From NCBI GenBank assembly GCA_031283105.1, contig JAITCL010000078.1:1-39468 (forward strand): a DNA stretch of 39,468 nucleotides. Direction: 5' to 3'. Position 1 is the stretch's first letter. Each line of letters opens with the position of its first letter. Origin of the DNA: Treponema sp. Lineage in GTDB: Bacteria; Spirochaetota; Spirochaetia; Treponematales; Breznakiellaceae. A program made the translations under genes and the position numbers. The notes below the pieces were generated by a model. That model saw only the letters and a program-made list of their open reading frames with translations, was not told the DNA's origin and searched no databases. Shown one piece after another: positions 10,593 to 19,601 of this stretch.

Positions 10593-10623
10593 CGAGCCTC
10601 CCTAATATTGTTCGCAAAGAATC

Positions 10624-10748
10624 ATAAACCACGAACCAACACCAACTCGTACCAAAGGTACGCATACGAACACCAACAAGATATGGAGTAAAAGTTCGTG
10701 CCGGTTCGTGTGGTTTGTGGTAAAATTCAAGCATATCGAACATCTCCT
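10624..10748. repeat. 125-bp palindromic intergenic element, copy 2
   Basis: Seven substitutions and no indels relative to 5993-6117; lies between flhB and flhA. Confidence 0.95.
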
Positions 10749-10770
10749 TATGGGTTGTCTCGCAAGGCTA

Positions 10771-12048
10771 TCATGCACTCACCCTTGCACTTGCCCTTTC
10801 ACGCGATTTCGCCTTGCGCCGCAGTTCGTTAATATCCATCACCTTTCTGAATATTGTCGCAACCACGGAATAATACGCTTCGGGGATATAATCCCCCACC
10901 TCCGTCTCCCGGTACAGGGCCTGGGCGACGGGCTTGTTTTCAACTAACGGAACGCCGTTTTCATTGGCAAGGTTGCGTATCCGCGCCGCCATTTCATCCG
11001 CGCCCTTGGCCGTTACCATGGGGCCGGGCATGGAATCCCGCTGATACTCCAGCGCCACGGCATAGTGGGTCGGATTGGTAATAACCACGTCGGCGCGGGG
11101 AACCGCTGCGGCAATATTCTGTTTCAGGAGCTCCCGGAAACGGCTGCGGATTCTGTTCCGTATCTGCGGGTCTCCCTCGTACATTTTCATTTCTTCCTTC
11201 ATTTCCTGCCGGGACATTCTGTTCCGTTCCCGGAAACGCCAACGCTGAAATAAAAGGTCGGGGATAGACAGTATCAGCAGCAACACCGCGCAGATGAGGA
11301 GTATGCGAATGGCAATCGACGCCACCGTCGTCAGCCCCAGCCAGAGGCCGGCCTTTTGCAGATTCGCCAGTTTGTTGATGTCCATTTTGATGAGGGAAAA
11401 CGCCACGCCCCCGATAATCAGCATTTTGATAATTGATTTTGCAAAATTAAACAGCCCGTCTATCGAAAAGATACGTTTGAAAAACTGCCCGAAGCGGGGC
11501 AGCACTTTGGTAAAATCAGGCGTAATGGGTTTGGTGGTAAATAAAAAACCCACCTGGACAATGTTGGAAAACAGCGCGGCAAATACCGCCACTATCAGTA
11601 TGGGCAGCGCCAGTTTGACCAGATAATGGAAAAAGGCCCCTACGATAATAGCGTCTTTGGTGGGGTCTAATTCTGTCGCCCGCAGGAAGAAAAAGCGCAG
11701 CATCTCCACGCAGGTACGCAGCATGGACGGCGCCAAAAAGAGCAGCAAGAGCGCGGGGAGAAACAGCGTCACCGCCCCTACCAGTTCCTGGCTTTTCGGT
11801 ACCTGCCCTTCTTCACGCAGCCGGCGCAGCTTATGTTCGGTCGGTTGTTCAGTCCTGCCCTCGGCTTCTGCGTCATCAGAGAACCATTGCAAGTGAATGA
11901 AAGGGAATGGGGAATGGGGAATGGGGAATGGGGAAGCGTAGTTTGTAGTTTCAGCGTAACCCACAAGAACACGCCCATCTCCCGAAGAAAAATCCCCGAC
12001 CCCTGTTCCCTGTTCCCTATTCCCTACTCCCCACTCCCTACTCCCCAT
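10771..12048 (-). CDS. flhB: Flagellar biosynthesis protein FlhB (with probable N-terminal repeat-encoded extension)
   Basis: HLQWFSDDAEAEGRTEQPTEHKLRRLREEGQVPKSQELVGA, NPTHYAVAL autocleavage-region motif; candidate ATG at 12048 preceded by GGAGGA; exact start uncertain because of the repeat insertion. Confidence 0.9.
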   Translation of the reverse strand: MGSREWGVGNREQGTGVGDFSSGDGRVLVGYAETTNYASPFPIPHSPFPFIHLQWFSDDAEAEGRTEQPTEHKLRRLREEGQVPKSQELVGAVTLFLPALLLLFLAPSMLRTCVEMLRFFFLRATELDPTKDAIIVGAFFHYLVKLALPILIVAVFAALFSNIVQVGFLFTTKPITPDFTKVLPRFGQFFKRIFSIDGLFNFAKSIIKMLIIGGVAFSLIKMDINKLANLQKAGLWLGLTTVASIAIRILLICAVLLLILSIPDLLFQRWRFRERNRMSRQEMKEEMKMYEGDPQIRNRIRSRFRELLKQNIAAAVPRADVVITNPTHYAVALEYQRDSMPGPMVTAKGADEMAARIRNLANENGVPLVENKPVAQALYRETEVGDYIPEAYYSVVATIFRKVMDINELRRKAKSRERASARVSA

Positions 12049-12049
12049 C
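11900..12049. repeat. Inverted pair of heptad arrays (GGGAATG)n / (CCCTACT)n flanking about 65 bp
   Basis: 11903-11935 GGGAATGGGGAATGGGGAATGGGGAATGGGGA; 12001-12049 CCCTGTTCCCTGTTCCCTATTCCCTACTCCCCACTCCCTACTCCCCATCT. Confidence 0.9.
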
Positions 12050-12955
12050 TTAAAATCCTCCCTCAATCTGCTGCCCAATCTGGGCATACAGACTTTGCAG
12101 GCTGGCAAAACCGGAATCAATGACCCGCGCAAAAGCCTCGGTCATAAAGGGCAGGGACGTAAAAATCAACAGAAAAGCCACCGTTATGGAAATGGGAAAA
12201 CCTTCACTGAGTATGTTAATTTGGGGCGCCGCTTTGGAGATAAGCCCCGTGGTCAGGGAAACGAGAAACAAAGTTCCCAGTATCGGCAGGGAAATGACAA
12301 TGGCATCCATGAACAGCCGGGAAAGCCCCGACGCCAACAGACTGATTACCGGTTCCCTCCCCGCGATTAAAGCGGTAACGCTGATGCTTTGCACGGAACG
12401 CCAGAAGCCGCCCAAAAATAATTCCCGAAAGCCGCCGATGGTCAGAAATATCAGCATCGACACCAGATTGAGGTATTGGCCCATGAGGGGGTTTTCAACC
12501 TGCGCCAGGGGGTCAAAAGTTTCCGAAGCGCCAAAGCCCATTTGCAGGGAGAAAAATTGTCCGGCGGTGGAAAAGGCGGCAAAAATAATCGTGAGGAAAA
12601 ACCCGATAATGATGCCGATAATCCCCTCGCCTATTAACAGCAGCAAAAACCTGAAACTAAACGGCTCATAGCGCAGGTCGCTTAAAAAAGAGAGACCGCC
12701 CGCGCTGGGAAGCATAACCGCTCCCGTGCCGCTTATTCCTGCCGCGCCCGCCGCCGTCGCCTCCACCCCAAAAACCGCCGCGGTGGGCATCACGGCAAAA
12801 GCGGTAAAACCCGCCAGGGCCAGTTTCGCCGTTTGGGGAATCGCCTCCGATGACAGCAGGGGGGCGGTCTCAATCATGGCAATGGCGCGGGCGGCAATCA
12901 GCAAAAACACCGGCCCGTAATTGAGAATATTTTGTAATACCGCGCCGTCTACCAA
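12050..12955 (-). CDS. fliR: Flagellar biosynthesis protein FliR
   Basis: FLLIAARAIAMIETAPLLSSEAIPQTAKLALAGFTAF; position between fliQ and flhB. Confidence 0.93.
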   Translation of the reverse strand: MVDGAVLQNILNYGPVFLLIAARAIAMIETAPLLSSEAIPQTAKLALAGFTAFAVMPTAAVFGVEATAAGAAGISGTGAVMLPSAGGLSFLSDLRYEPFSFRFLLLLIGEGIIGIIIGFFLTIIFAAFSTAGQFFSLQMGFGASETFDPLAQVENPLMGQYLNLVSMLIFLTIGGFRELFLGGFWRSVQSISVTALIAGREPVISLLASGLSRLFMDAIVISLPILGTLFLVSLTTGLISKAAPQINILSEGFPISITVAFLLIFTSLPFMTEAFARVIDSGFASLQSLYAQIGQQIEGGF

Positions 12956-14096: not shown

Positions 14097-14153
14097 TTTC
14101 TACTCCCTACTCCCTATTCCTCATTCCTACTCCCCATTCCCTACTCCCCACTC
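14097..14153. repeat. Heptad array between fliO and fliP (G-rich on the coding strand)
   Basis: TACTCCCTACTCCCTATTCCTCATTCCTACTCCCCATTCCCTACTCCCCACTCT. Confidence 0.9.
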
Positions 14154-14759
14154 TCACAGTCCCTTGAGCCTTTCCCGGCGTTTGCGAATATCTTCCGGGC
14201 CGGGAGGGGCGTTGGATTCCGCCGACATTCCCAGCCTTTGGAGCAAAGCCCTAAAATCGGGGAAAGGCCCGGCGGGGGCTTCGGCGCTTTTGCGGGAATC
14301 TTCGAGGAGCATCGCATTCAGGACGTCTTTATCATCAATTTCGCTGATAAGGCTGAGACCGCTTTCTGCGGCGCCCACCAGCCATGCCCGTGAACCCACC
14401 GCGATAATGTACGCGCCGCGGTTTGCCCCCAGCGGGGCGCTGGCAAGTATTTTAAGGAAGGGGTCCTGATTTCTGCCGCCCCGGGCAGACCGTTTGATAA
14501 AGAAGACCAGGCCGTAAATGGCCGCCGCAACCACGGCAAGGGTTAAAATTACCCGGAATATGCCCCAGACGGACACCGCGGGAGGGGTGAGCGCCGCCCC
14601 CGCCCCGGCGTCTCCCAGGGAAAGCGCCTGTTCCCGGGCGGTAATCGGGTCGACCGCCGGGGTTTCCTGAACAGTGGTTTCCTCCGGGAAAGCCGCTTCC
14701 TGGGCAAAAAGAGCGGTGACAGACAGATTAAATATACACAGGGTACATACAATAGCCAA
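14154..14759 (-). CDS. fliO: Flagellar biosynthesis protein FliO/FliZ family
   Basis: Signal/TM, one TM, then LKILASAPLGANRGAYIIAVGSRAWLVGAAESGLSLISEI; upstream of fliP. Confidence 0.88.
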   Translation of the reverse strand: MAIVCTLCIFNLSVTALFAQEAAFPEETTVQETPAVDPITAREQALSLGDAGAGAALTPPAVSVWGIFRVILTLAVVAAAIYGLVFFIKRSARGGRNQDPFLKILASAPLGANRGAYIIAVGSRAWLVGAAESGLSLISEIDDKDVLNAMLLEDSRKSAEAPAGPFPDFRALLQRLGMSAESNAPPGPEDIRKRRERLKGL

Positions 14760-14955: not shown

Positions 14956-17730
14956 ATGGCAGAAAAAAAACCTTCAAAGAACTCTGATCGCGGCACAATC
15001 GGTTCGGCGGAAGAACTTGACGCTTACGGCGTGTGGGTTAAAAGCGAACCGCAAGACCTGACTGCAAGCATGGCGGAAGCGGTCAATTTTGACACTGAAG
15101 CCGTACCCTACGCTGACTTTGACATGGAGTTTGACGATACGGAGGAATCAAGTTTTGATTTTGCCGATCTGGAACCGGTAATTCCGGAGATTAGTGTTGA
15201 AGACGATGATAATGATAATTTCGATGTCGGAATAACGGCGTCTGCGGCAGAACGGGGCGGCGAAGAAGCGTCCACCCAGCTTTTGATGAAAATAGCCGAT
15301 GAACTGTCGGCGATCCGGCTTGAGTTAAGCACCCTGAAAAAGGAATTTGCCGGTGTGCGCATTGAAAGCGCCCCCGGCGTAAAAACCGCCGGCGTAACCG
15401 CCGAAGCCCGGCACGGCGGTTTTTTTGACGGAGAAGAGGGAGATGATGAAAAAATCACCCTGACCGGCGATGAGATGGAAAACATTCTTACATCCGCCGA
15501 TTTTTCCGCAGAGGAAGGCATTGGTTTTGATGCCCGGCGGGAAGCGGATGAAGCCGCGCTTAAAGAGCTTTCCGAACAGAATGAAAGCGCCACGGAAACA
15601 GAAGAAGAGGAAGAGATAGCCATAGATTTCGACAATCTGGGCATCAACCTGGATGATGACATCGAGGCGGAAGCGCTTGATGAATTCCCGCCGCTGGAAG
15701 CCGGTATTGATGATGATTTTGAAACATCATCTCTTGACGCGTTGTCATTGGAAGAAATACCCCCGCTGGAAGAGATACCGTCAGAAGAAATGCCTTCGGA
15801 AGAGATGCAAGAAGAGCTTATGCCCCTTGAATCGCTTAAAGAAGAAGATGATGAAGAATTGCAGGATCTCCGCCGTGAAGGCGCGATTCCTTTTACGCCC
15901 GCCCCCGATAACAGCATGTATCTTGAAACAGACCCTTTTGCCCTTGATGATTCCGGTCTCGAAGAAATCCCCCTCGGAGAAACATCCTTCGATGAAACCG
16001 CTCTTGAAGAACCTGCCCTTGATGATTCCGGTCTCGGAGAAATTTCCCTCGGAGAAACATCCTTCGATGAAACTACTCTTGAAGAACCTGCCCTTGATGA
16101 TTCCGGTTTCGAAGAAATTTCCCTCGGAGAAACATCCTTCGATGAAACCGCCCTTGAAGAAATCGCTCTCGAAGAACCTGCTCTTGAAGATACGGCTATT
16201 GAAGAAACTACTCTTGATGAACCTGCCCTCGCAGAAAGCGGTTTAACAGAAACCGTTTCCCCGGATACGGCTTCTGAAATTACCGCGGATTTAAGTTTTG
16301 ATGAAACCAGCTTTGACCTTGATGCCGATGATTTTTCCATTGATGAAAGTTTGCCCCCGCCCGAAGAAGAAATAGTTGAAGAACAGACTGCGGAACAAAC
16401 CTTTGAAAGCCCGGCCCCGATTGAGGAAGAAATCAGCGATGAGCCGGTCTTTGATACCGATCTGGATCTTTCCGCCGAAAGCCTGTCCCCATTTGAAGAA
16501 GAAACCGGCGATTTGGACATTTCCACCGAAAGTGAAATAAGTATTGAGCAAACTTTTGAAAGTCCGGTTTCGCTGGGAGATGAAATAAGCATTGAACAAA
16601 CTTTTGAAAGCCCGGCCCCAATTGAGGAAGAAATCAGCGATGAACCGGTCTTTGATACCAGTCTGGATCTTTCCGCCGAAAGCCTGTCCCCGTTTGAAGA
16701 AGAAACCGGCGATTTGGACATTTCCGCTGAAAGTGAAATAAGCATTGGGGAAACTTTTGAAAGCCCGGCCCCAATTGAGGAAGAAATCAGCGATGAGCCG
16801 GTCTTTGATACCGGGCTGGATCTCTCCGAAGCGGTCATTGACGAGCCGGATCTTTCCGCCGGGTTGGTGGAAGCTCCCCTGGAGGAACCGGTTCTGGGTG
16901 ATATTTCGTTTGGGGATGACATATCGCTTGACATGGATGATTTTGGATCCGGCATTGATATTGATACCGGCGCTGAATTGGGCGCGGAAGAAGATCTCGG
17001 CCTTGCCGATGACCTGGCGATGGATGATGTCGAGACCGGAGACAGCGGCCTCGGCGGCGACATTGTTATGGATGAGAGCATCGGGCTTGATACGGAAGCC
17101 GACGATTCCGTTGAGAGTCTTGCCGTAGATATTGATACCGGCGCGGAAGAAGATCTCGGCCTTGCCGAAGACTTGGCGATGGATGATGTTGAGACCGGCA
17201 TTGAGCTTGATATGGGAGCCGACGGCCTCGTTATGGATGAAACCGGCATCGAGCTTGATGCCGGAGACATCGGCCCTGCCGGCGGCCTTGCCGGCGGCCT
17301 TACCGATGATCTTGCCGGCGATCTTGCCCTGGATGACTTTGACGCAGGTATCGATCTTGACGTAAAAGAAGAAGATGGCGGCCTTGCCGGCGGCCCTGCC
17401 GGAAGCCTTGCCGACGACGGCCTTACCGGGATTATTCCCGAAGGTTTTGAAATAAACGCGGAAGAAGCCCCCATTTCGGTGGATGACGATCTGGAAGCCT
17501 TTGACGAAGGGGAAATAAGCCTGCCCCAGGCCTCCGCGGCCAAAACCGCCGGGGCTGATGCCGACGAGGATATTGATATTCCGGCAAATTTCAAGAGTGA
17601 GCTGAAAAGCGTGTTGTCGTACATGGATCGTCTCCTGGAATCTCTGCCGGAGGATAAAATCGAAGAATTCGCAAAATCCGAATATTTTGATTCGTATAAA
17701 AAAATATTCAAGGAATTGGGATTGGTGTAG
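14956..17730 (+). CDS. Large acidic tandem-repeat protein (924 aa)
   Basis: GGGAGC ribosome site, very D/E-rich, 25-aa repeats (LEEPALDDSGLEEISLGETSFDETA) and longer TFESPAPIEEEISDEPVFDTxLDLS repeats, non-repetitive C-terminus IPANFKSELKSVLSYMDRLLESLPEDKIEEFAKSEYFDSYKKIFKELGLV. Confidence 0.88.
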   Translation: MAEKKPSKNSDRGTIGSAEELDAYGVWVKSEPQDLTASMAEAVNFDTEAVPYADFDMEFDDTEESSFDFADLEPVIPEISVEDDDNDNFDVGITASAAERGGEEASTQLLMKIADELSAIRLELSTLKKEFAGVRIESAPGVKTAGVTAEARHGGFFDGEEGDDEKITLTGDEMENILTSADFSAEEGIGFDARREADEAALKELSEQNESATETEEEEEIAIDFDNLGINLDDDIEAEALDEFPPLEAGIDDDFETSSLDALSLEEIPPLEEIPSEEMPSEEMQEELMPLESLKEEDDEELQDLRREGAIPFTPAPDNSMYLETDPFALDDSGLEEIPLGETSFDETALEEPALDDSGLGEISLGETSFDETTLEEPALDDSGFEEISLGETSFDETALEEIALEEPALEDTAIEETTLDEPALAESGLTETVSPDTASEITADLSFDETSFDLDADDFSIDESLPPPEEEIVEEQTAEQTFESPAPIEEEISDEPVFDTDLDLSAESLSPFEEETGDLDISTESEISIEQTFESPVSLGDEISIEQTFESPAPIEEEISDEPVFDTSLDLSAESLSPFEEETGDLDISAESEISIGETFESPAPIEEEISDEPVFDTGLDLSEAVIDEPDLSAGLVEAPLEEPVLGDISFGDDISLDMDDFGSGIDIDTGAELGAEEDLGLADDLAMDDVETGDSGLGGDIVMDESIGLDTEADDSVESLAVDIDTGAEEDLGLAEDLAMDDVETGIELDMGADGLVMDETGIELDAGDIGPAGGLAGGLTDDLAGDLALDDFDAGIDLDVKEEDGGLAGGPAGSLADDGLTGIIPEGFEINAEEAPISVDDDLEAFDEGEISLPQASAAKTAGADADEDIDIPANFKSELKSVLSYMDRLLESLPEDKIEEFAKSEYFDSYKKIFKELGLV
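15973..16165 (+). repeat. 75-nt tandem repeats within the acidic protein gene
   Basis: CTCGGAGAAACATCCTTCGATGAAAC recurs at 15973, 16048 and 16123 (exact 75-nt period). Confidence 0.9.
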
Positions 17731-18078: not shown

Positions 18079-18126
18079 AGGGAGTAGAGAGTAGGGAGTA
18101 GGGAATGGGGAATGGGGAATGGGGAG
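18079..18126. repeat. Heptad array (GGGAGTA/GGGAATG)n between 113-aa ORF and DUF115 gene
   Basis: GGGAGTAGAGAGTAGGGAGTAGGGAATGGGGAATGGGGAATGGGGAG. Confidence 0.9.
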
Positions 18127-18134
18127 CGCAATGA

Positions 18135-19601
18135 TTGGTCAGTAAGCTGAACGGGTTGTCAACAGATACAGAGAACGAGCAACACTCCCCATTTTCTGTT
18201 ACACAACTTCACTCCCGATACCAGCCGCAGATTGAAGCCGACCGCTATATCGAAGCGCTTAACCTGCGCCGTGACATAGACTATTTTATTTTAATTGAAC
18301 CGGGGCTGGGTTATCTGATTCCCGCCCTGCGGCAATTCCGGCCTGAAAGTAAAATCGTTGTTCTCCATGCGGATAATTATTTTCGCGTAACAGCAGACCG
18401 TTACCCTGATATTCCGGTATGGCTCCCGGACAGCGGGATAGGGGTACAGGAATTTCTTGAAGAACAAATTCCCGAGGCGGCTTCGGCGCGGATTATCGAA
18501 TGGCGTCCCAGCATCCGCGCCTATGGGGATAGATGCCTTGAGCTTGTCCGCGAAAGCACGGAATTTATCAAGCGTTCAGAAGCAAGCCGCAGAACCGGCG
18601 CCGTATTTGGCGGAAGATGGGCGCGCAATTTCTTCCGCAATCTCGCGCTCGTGAACAGGACGGTACTGTACCGGACTATGGATATGCCCATAGTCATTAC
18701 CGGTTCAGGCCCCAGCCTGGAGGCCGCCCTGCCGCAAATTCTGGCGGCGCGGAAAAGTGTGTTTGTTCTGGCGGCTTCTTCTTCACTGCCCGCATTGGCG
18801 GCGGGCGGCATTACGCCCGACATGGTGATCAGCACGGACGGCGGCGGCTGGGCGCTGCTGCATTTACACGCCTGCTTCCGCGGGGAAAGAACGCCGCCCC
18901 TGCTGGCCTGTTCCCTTTCCGCGGCTATTCCTTCCCAATGCGCCGCCCTCCCCCTGCTTCCCCTGAATGACGGCACGGTGTGGCAGAGCATGGCACTGCA
19001 AAGCATCGGCATTCCTTCGGCGCTCGTCCCGCAGCGGGGAACGGTAACCGCATCCGCCCTTGAACTGGCTTTGGCTCTTTCAAGCGGCAGTATTTTTCTT
19101 GCCGGTATGGATCTTGGGATACCGGACATACGAAGCCATGCCCGGCCCTACGGTTTTGACCATCTGTTTTACGGCGCGGCGTCGCGGCTGCGGCCCGTGT
19201 ACTCGCAGCACTTTATCCGTTCACGGGCAATTAAGGCGGGGGGCAGCCATGACGTGTACGCCGCCTGGTTCAAAAACAGAATTGCGTCATCACCTGCGCG
19301 GATTTTTTCTATTGGCGGCAATCACGCGGTTTTGGGAAACAGCCTGCCCCGCATGAATTTAACAGAAGACGAGGGGGAGCATAAAGTCAGCGGCTGTTTC
19401 AAAATAATGACGCTTAACGATTCACCGGCGGAACGCCGCAGCCATGCCGCCGAAACCCTGATTGCCGCGCTGGGTAACCCGCAGTATGCCGCCGTTCTGT
19501 CAGGCGAATTAAGTCCGCTGCTGTTCCCCTCGAACCCCCAAGTCCCGCCAGAAGAAATTGCGGAAACGCTGCGAAATATAACCCGGAGGAAATGTGGATA
19601 A
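18135..19601 (+). CDS. DUF115 / motility accessory factor (Maf)-like protein
   Basis: PIVITGSGPSLEAALPQILAARKSVFVLAASSSLPALAAGGITPDMVISTDGG matches the DUF115 core; TTG start with GGGGAG upstream; ATG alternatives not obvious. Confidence 0.8.
   Translation: MVSKLNGLSTDTENEQHSPFSVTQLHSRYQPQIEADRYIEALNLRRDIDYFILIEPGLGYLIPALRQFRPESKIVVLHADNYFRVTADRYPDIPVWLPDSGIGVQEFLEEQIPEAASARIIEWRPSIRAYGDRCLELVRESTEFIKRSEASRRTGAVFGGRWARNFFRNLALVNRTVLYRTMDMPIVITGSGPSLEAALPQILAARKSVFVLAASSSLPALAAGGITPDMVISTDGGGWALLHLHACFRGERTPPLLACSLSAAIPSQCAALPLLPLNDGTVWQSMALQSIGIPSALVPQRGTVTASALELALALSSGSIFLAGMDLGIPDIRSHARPYGFDHLFYGAASRLRPVYSQHFIRSRAIKAGGSHDVYAAWFKNRIASSPARIFSIGGNHAVLGNSLPRMNLTEDEGEHKVSGCFKIMTLNDSPAERRSHAAETLIAALGNPQYAAVLSGELSPLLFPSNPQVPPEEIAETLRNITRRKCG

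Follow-up and report, generated by a model that had tools for sequence, protein, structure and literature searches.

A dispersed heptad repeat within a hypervariable, putatively Prp-removed leader of spirochete FlhB

INTRODUCTION

How can a packed flagellar operon accommodate an interspersed repeat at the very point where one of its genes must begin? The question is raised by a 39,468-nucleotide stretch of DNA assigned to Treponema sp. (assembly GCA_031283105.1, contig JAITCL010000078.1; hereafter "the window"), in which a repeat element of 147 bases directly follows the ATG of flhB, the gene for an export gate protein. We propose that the repeat is, in all likelihood, an in-frame, translated part of an N-terminal FlhB leader that would be cut after an LQWF motif by the cysteine protease Prp and then discarded.

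Prp of Firmicutes cuts an N-terminal extension off L27 at LQ(F/L)F↓A (the arrow marks the cut), and spirochetes possess Prp together with a short L27 (PMC9405229). The same work proposed FlhB as a Prp substrate, a candidate drawn from motif likeness and unproven, listing T. pallidum FIIDLQWF↓AAEDEG; its motif comparison shows LQWF in FlhB from both T. pallidum and E. rectale (PMC9405229).

RESULTS

A stop-free leader begins at the fliR stop codon

The flagellar export genes of the window run along the minus strand in the order fliO, fliP, fliQ, fliR, flhB, flhA (Table 1). An initial annotation, made from the letters alone, had put the flhB start at an ATG beside the fliR stop, 7 nucleotides behind a GGAGGA Shine-Dalgarno (SD) sequence, had found no good start beside the recognizable FlhB homology, and had read the repeat as an insertion translated in frame. 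Its coordinates and peptide were right (SD, 12061-12056; fliR stop, 12052-12050; ATG, 12048-12046; repeat, 12045-11899; IHLQWF, 11898-11881), and the sole in-frame alternative before LQWF, among ATG, GTG and TTG codons, is a GTG 24 codons upstream of the motif.

We compared the fliR-flhB junctions of all 35 same-genus genomes that have flhB and of 60 genomes from other genera of the family, 56 of them readable; one genus locus (L069) has no fliR on its contig, and one genome (G045) gives two copies. In 91/91 genomes a start codon stands where fliR stops, the two codons usually overlapping as ATGA or the like, and the reading frame continues uninterrupted to (I/M)(D/H)LQWF, over leaders of 5 to 231 codons. 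Not one stop occurs in the leader frame of these genomes, versus 469 in the other two frames (114 + 103, or 217, within the genus; 166 + 86, or 252, in the rest of the family). By dinucleotide shuffling, the chance that the 35 genus leaders would all be open is ~10^-31, a figure that spans related and so non-independent genomes. Because the start position is fixed and the leader frame is stop-free in every genome, translation very probably does begin at the ATG next to the end of fliR and run through the repeat. The start position is held across relatives, and the comparison strongly supports the translated, in-frame insertion first proposed. It also qualifies that proposal: start and open frame are kept, and a leader, with or without repeats, is present in all relatives.

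Unrelated repeats gather at one position

The element in the window has a 7-base periodicity far above chance, with 26/28 lag-7 matches, whereas shuffled sequence reached at most 17 (element, 500 dinucleotide shuffles) or 19 (window, 30 shuffles). Its arms are 76-86% complementary and its fold energy is -70.2 kcal/mol (z = -4.3); the earlier description of a segment of ~150 bp with inverted heptad arrays at both ends is thus borne out. About 50 heptad-array matches occur in the window's genome. Two other arrays in the window lie between open reading frames (ORFs), at 14101-14155 in the fliO-fliP gap and at 18080-18128 just upstream of an ORF starting at 18135; unlike these, the flhB array is coding. 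An Rfam family was sought for the element and rejected, the scan giving microRNA-type hairpin matches alone, far under gathering scores.

Upstream of the LQWF motif the leader is unalignable between most species. A sister genome (G017) whose FlhB core is 94% identical carries a different element made of CACGGAG repeats. Other leaders hold GGGGACT heptads (G042), a 112-bp element that has more than 40 copies in its own genome and is nested in AACAATT-type heptads (G050), or a palindrome with GTATGCCC/GGGCATAC ends (G006). The elements of these four leaders have many copies elsewhere in their own or sister genomes, and at least four unrelated dispersed repeat families occupy the flhB leader site in different species. 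Some relatives have short, repeat-free leaders of 8-20 residues. Over 92 sequences, column entropy is 3.5-3.9 bits upstream of the motif (lower at -5, -4, -2 and -1) and 0.1, 0, 0 and 0 at L, Q, W and F, which A or S follows. What the comparison shows is a leader kept open and in frame, and otherwise free to vary and to gather dispersed repeats. Two explanations of this clustering were ruled out. An insertion-site preference of a single element family conflicts with the four or more unrelated families present there, and a hotspot common to all operon junctions conflicts with the gaps between fliP and fliQ and between fliQ and fliR, which mostly measure 2-30 nucleotides and hold few inserts.

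Some leaders are notable in other respects. One (L136) has 206 residues with SIAQSYSPIVKSY-type tandem repeats, another (L112) reaches 231 residues, and a third (L134) carries RSDLRGA-type repeats. Five loci (L037 and L038 of family f5, L118, L141 and L032) have the LQWF-type site tandemly multiplied within the leader, e.g., IDLQWFVANGVDG... and MDLQCTSGTPV, a pattern suggestive of copying of the predicted Prp site. The GGGGACT insert of G042 (locus L051) provides the fliR stop TAG, and the insert has thus changed both genes, fliR at its end and flhB at its beginning.

The conserved motif resembles a Prp site

The site in the window, IHLQWF↓S, lies near the N-terminus and fits the LQ(F/L)F↓A(S/H)-like motif of Prp, with W in place of F/L. 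The window's genome has a prp gene between rplU and rpmA (L237:1501-1830; PF04327, 54.7 bits, above the Pfam cut-off). The H, D and C of its product (GHA...DIVCA) align with the catalytic residues of S. aureus Prp (4peo). The L27 of this genome is short, beginning MARKRGG.

Prp and the FlhB leader are lost together

A natural experiment is provided by genus g12, in which Prp is missing in 26/89 genomes. We read the FlhB N-termini of 25 of these 26 and of 31 Prp-positive genomes. All 25 Prp-less proteins start with (M/V/L)AAE(D/E)EGRTE or the like, which is to say at the residue after the predicted cut (two, in G505 and G516, may be longer by a few residues should an upstream codon serve as start), while a leader with LQWF is found in 29/31 Prp-positive genomes. 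In 9/9 Prp-less L27 loci read, the L21 and L27 genes are direct neighbors and prp is missing from its place between them; in 2/2 Prp-positive loci read, prp is present. By this comparison, Prp and the FlhB leader are lost together.

We also surveyed 297 Spirochaetota genomes that are at least 95% complete. Prp and FlhB occur together in 197, neither occurs in 49, FlhB occurs without a Prp match in 51, and Prp without FlhB occurs in none. The 51 FlhB-only genomes, which are largely accounted for, comprise 28 of the Borreliaceae-like family f7, 10 of g12, 4 of f10, 5 of f35, 2 with weak FlhB matches, and the single genomes G304 and G463. For the Borreliaceae-like family, true absence of Prp was rejected in favor of a detection limit: in 4/4 loci read (L297-L300), the L21 and L27 genes are separated by a divergent Prp-like ORF that has GHA and C. 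A Prp-like ORF is likewise present at the L27 locus of G304 (L304). The four f10 genomes have an eroded flhB, with internal stops in three.

Two further observations concern these genomes. The Prp-like ORFs of L297-L300 and L304 (GHA...VC) miss or barely reach the Pfam Prp model, and Pfam alone undercounts Prp in Borreliaceae-like genomes. In the three f10 genomes whose flhB has internal stops (G305, G365 and G478), prp is missing too, with L21 adjoining L27 in G305; here as well the two genes have decayed together.

Objections and competing explanations

Several observations weigh against maturation of FlhB by Prp. Five f35 genomes (L261-L264 and L280) have FlhB while Prp was found neither by Pfam nor near L27; they keep an in-frame FlhB extension ending in F↓AAEDEG or similar, and they remain unaccounted for. 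No Prp was found in 6/25 genomes of the window's own genus that were searched, these being incomplete drafts, and the window is itself contig C39 of a 2.79-Mb draft genome with 7% contamination. Among Prp-positive g12 genomes, one (G324) has LKWF↓G at the site and another (G498) has a leaderless FlhB, along with a second partial FlhB that may mark a mixed assembly. The loss of Prp in g12 may be a single event, so that the 25/25 agreement would not amount to 25 independent events. Translation and cleavage, finally, are both deduced from sequence comparison.

The f35 genomes and the indirect nature of the evidence for cleavage lend some weight to a reading in which the repeat is translated and then stays attached to mature FlhB, a disordered and harmless extension in the cytoplasm, with no protease involved. 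Such an extension would account for a frame that stays open and for inserts being tolerated. It leaves unexplained, however, the near-invariant LQWF beside near-random sequence, the match to the Prp motif, the absence of any genome with Prp and without FlhB among the 297, and the exact loss up to F in Prp-less genomes, and we consider it unlikely.

We regard it as quite unlikely that the inverted arms fold in the RNA into a hairpin or G-quadruplex controlling flhB translation or its coupling to fliR, coding being incidental. Strong hairpins do extend from the start codon in the window and in L051 (z = -4.3 and -7.3), accessibility of the start region in the window is below average (0.19 versus 0.43), and G-rich heptads of similar type form G-quadruplexes in vitro (PMC4692102). 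The structure is inconsistent across the genus, however, with z < -2 in 9/32 leaders and many values near 0; SD accessibility in the window is average, and no Rfam match exceeded the threshold. A regulatory hairpin was rejected as a general explanation on the inconsistency of fold z-scores and ribosome-binding-site accessibility across the genus.

A phase-variation switch, in which gain or loss of 7-bp units would frameshift flhB and turn flagella off, is suggested by the four perfect GGGAATG units (28 bp) within the frame, 7 being no multiple of 3; it is very improbable, as relatives carry non-tandem repeats or none at this site and the frame is unbroken throughout the genomes read. Hardly credible, and rejected on the open frame of all relatives, is an untranslated leader with FlhB initiating at or near IHLQWF on a weak or non-standard codon: many bacterial FlhB proteins do begin shortly before the motif (PMC9405229), but the window offers that lone GTG, 6/35 genus leaders have no alternative start and those of the others lie at inconsistent positions, and an untranslated leader would not stay stop-free in one frame in 91/91 genomes.

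Features of the window

Table 1. Features of the fliR-flhB region of the window and the associated peptides
Feature	Position	Strand	Basis
fliR, TAA stop at 12052-12050, one base ahead of the flhB ATG	12050..12955	-	Pfam PF01311, 178.9 bits; ORF
flhB SD sequence GGAGGA within the fliR 3' end, spacing 7	12056..12061	-	Sequence; equivalent SD and start at the fliR stop in relatives
flhB, 425-residue precursor, ATG 12048	10771..12048	-	Pfam PF01312, 387.6 bits, residues 64-403; ORF and translation
flhB start codon ATG	12048-12046	-	Sequence
Variable FlhB leader, 50 codons before IH, formed by the repeat element; translation and later removal predicted	11899..12048	-	Frame 0 open, stops in +1 and +2; lineage-specific sequence at the same place in relatives
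Element 5' arm, six GGGARTR heptads, sense	12004..12045	-	
Element unique core between the arms, about 70 bases	11935..12003	-	
Element 3' arm, four perfect copies of the GGGAATG heptad, opposite in orientation to the 5' arm	11903..11930	+	
IHLQWF, predicted Prp recognition motif, predicted cut after F (codon 11883-11881)	11881..11898	-	Near-invariant LQWF; published Prp motif; leader loss in Prp-less lineages
Mature FlhB, predicted N-terminus SDDAEAEGRTEQ	After codon 11883-11881	-	Predicted Prp cut
Predicted Prp-site peptides of the group, PFIHLQWFSDDAE			
Candidate Prp substrate peptide, PFIHLQWFSDDAEAE			

Two other features of the window deserve mention. The flhB-flhA gap (10593-10770) is 178 nucleotides here versus mostly 0-50 in relatives, and contains another inverted repeat (CCACGAACCAACACC ... 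GGTTCGTGTGGTTTGTGG). On the plus strand, positions 14956-17730 hold an ORF of 924 residues that is very acidic and has long internal repeats (LSAESLSPFEEETGDLDIS and others). The nearest relatives, drafts named Treponema sp., presumably come from termite guts, judging by isolate naming and the literature on the group.

DISCUSSION

We favor a scenario in which translation would start at ATG 12048, beside the fliR stop, and Prp would cut the FlhB precursor after LQWF to yield a mature FlhB starting (A/S)(A/D)xxE, the repeat peptide being thrown away after the cut. The leader may be free to vary because Prp removes it at LQWF. The insertion itself would be a routine event, in which a spreading heptad-type interspersed repeat reached one of the few spots in the packed operon that tolerate in-frame DNA. 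For Spirochaetota at large, it seems likely that the conserved job of Prp is maturation of FlhB and not of the ribosome, that the LQWF cut is required, that the leader offers selfish repeats a neutral landing site, and that loss of either partner entails loss of the other.

These comparisons are strong new evidence for a predicted maturation of FlhB by Prp. The proposal that FlhB is a Prp substrate, which has so far relied on motif likeness, becomes directly testable because Prp-less treponemes have lost exactly the leader, no surveyed genome has Prp while lacking FlhB, and the hypervariable leader ends sharply at LQWF. Spirochete Prp thereby gains a likely function, in-frame repeats can accumulate harmlessly in a protease-removed leader, and the FlhB N-termini that databases list for these organisms would be largely leader sequence. 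Neither hypervariable FlhB leaders nor their co-loss with Prp turned up in our searches of the open-access literature, subscription journals lying outside the search.

The initial annotation likened the element to Rickettsia palindromic elements. The analogy holds for behavior: at about 150 bp, with inverted arms and an open frame, the element resembles those short palindromic sequences, which are of similar size, inverted, in frame with host genes, and split among several unrelated families (PMC10969869). It does not hold for the explanation, as the insert lies in a hypervariable, probably Prp-removed leader and not in mature FlhB. Here, moreover, one gene position gathers unrelated elements in different species, and the insert is an array of 7-bp units that has no conserved peptide and probably falls outside the mature protein. 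A likeness of behavior, with no claim of membership, would be a fair description.

In sequence type the unit resembles the G-rich heptamers GGGNATC and GGGGA(C/T)T of Xanthomonas and Nostoc (PMC4692102), which are 7-bp units of like type (compare GGGAATG and GGGAGTA, and GGGGACT in G042), dispersed, sometimes in inverted pairs, and typically four units long. Tandem 7-bp G-rich units are likewise dispersed through the window's genome; the difference is that the flhB copy sits within a reading frame. The TAACTGA heptamers of Beggiatoaceae, Cyanobacteria and Bacteroidetes (PMC4679880) also form arrays near start codons, with rare in-frame copies at protein ends, but they are built of another unit, have a proposed regulatory role, and do not concern flhB.

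The closest parallel for the predicted processing is the Prp/L27 system of Firmicutes (Prp, phage-related ribosomal protease, MEROPS C108; PMC9405229). Both share an LQ-x-F↓(A/S) site near the N-terminus with a leader of free sequence upstream, and in both prp lies between rplU and rpmA with its catalytic His, Asp and Cys in place. In the spirochetes, however, the putative substrate is FlhB, L27 is short, and W stands in place of F or L before the P1 F; the FlhB leaders, at 5-231 residues, are lineage-specific and repeat-rich, versus about 9-15 residues in Firmicutes.
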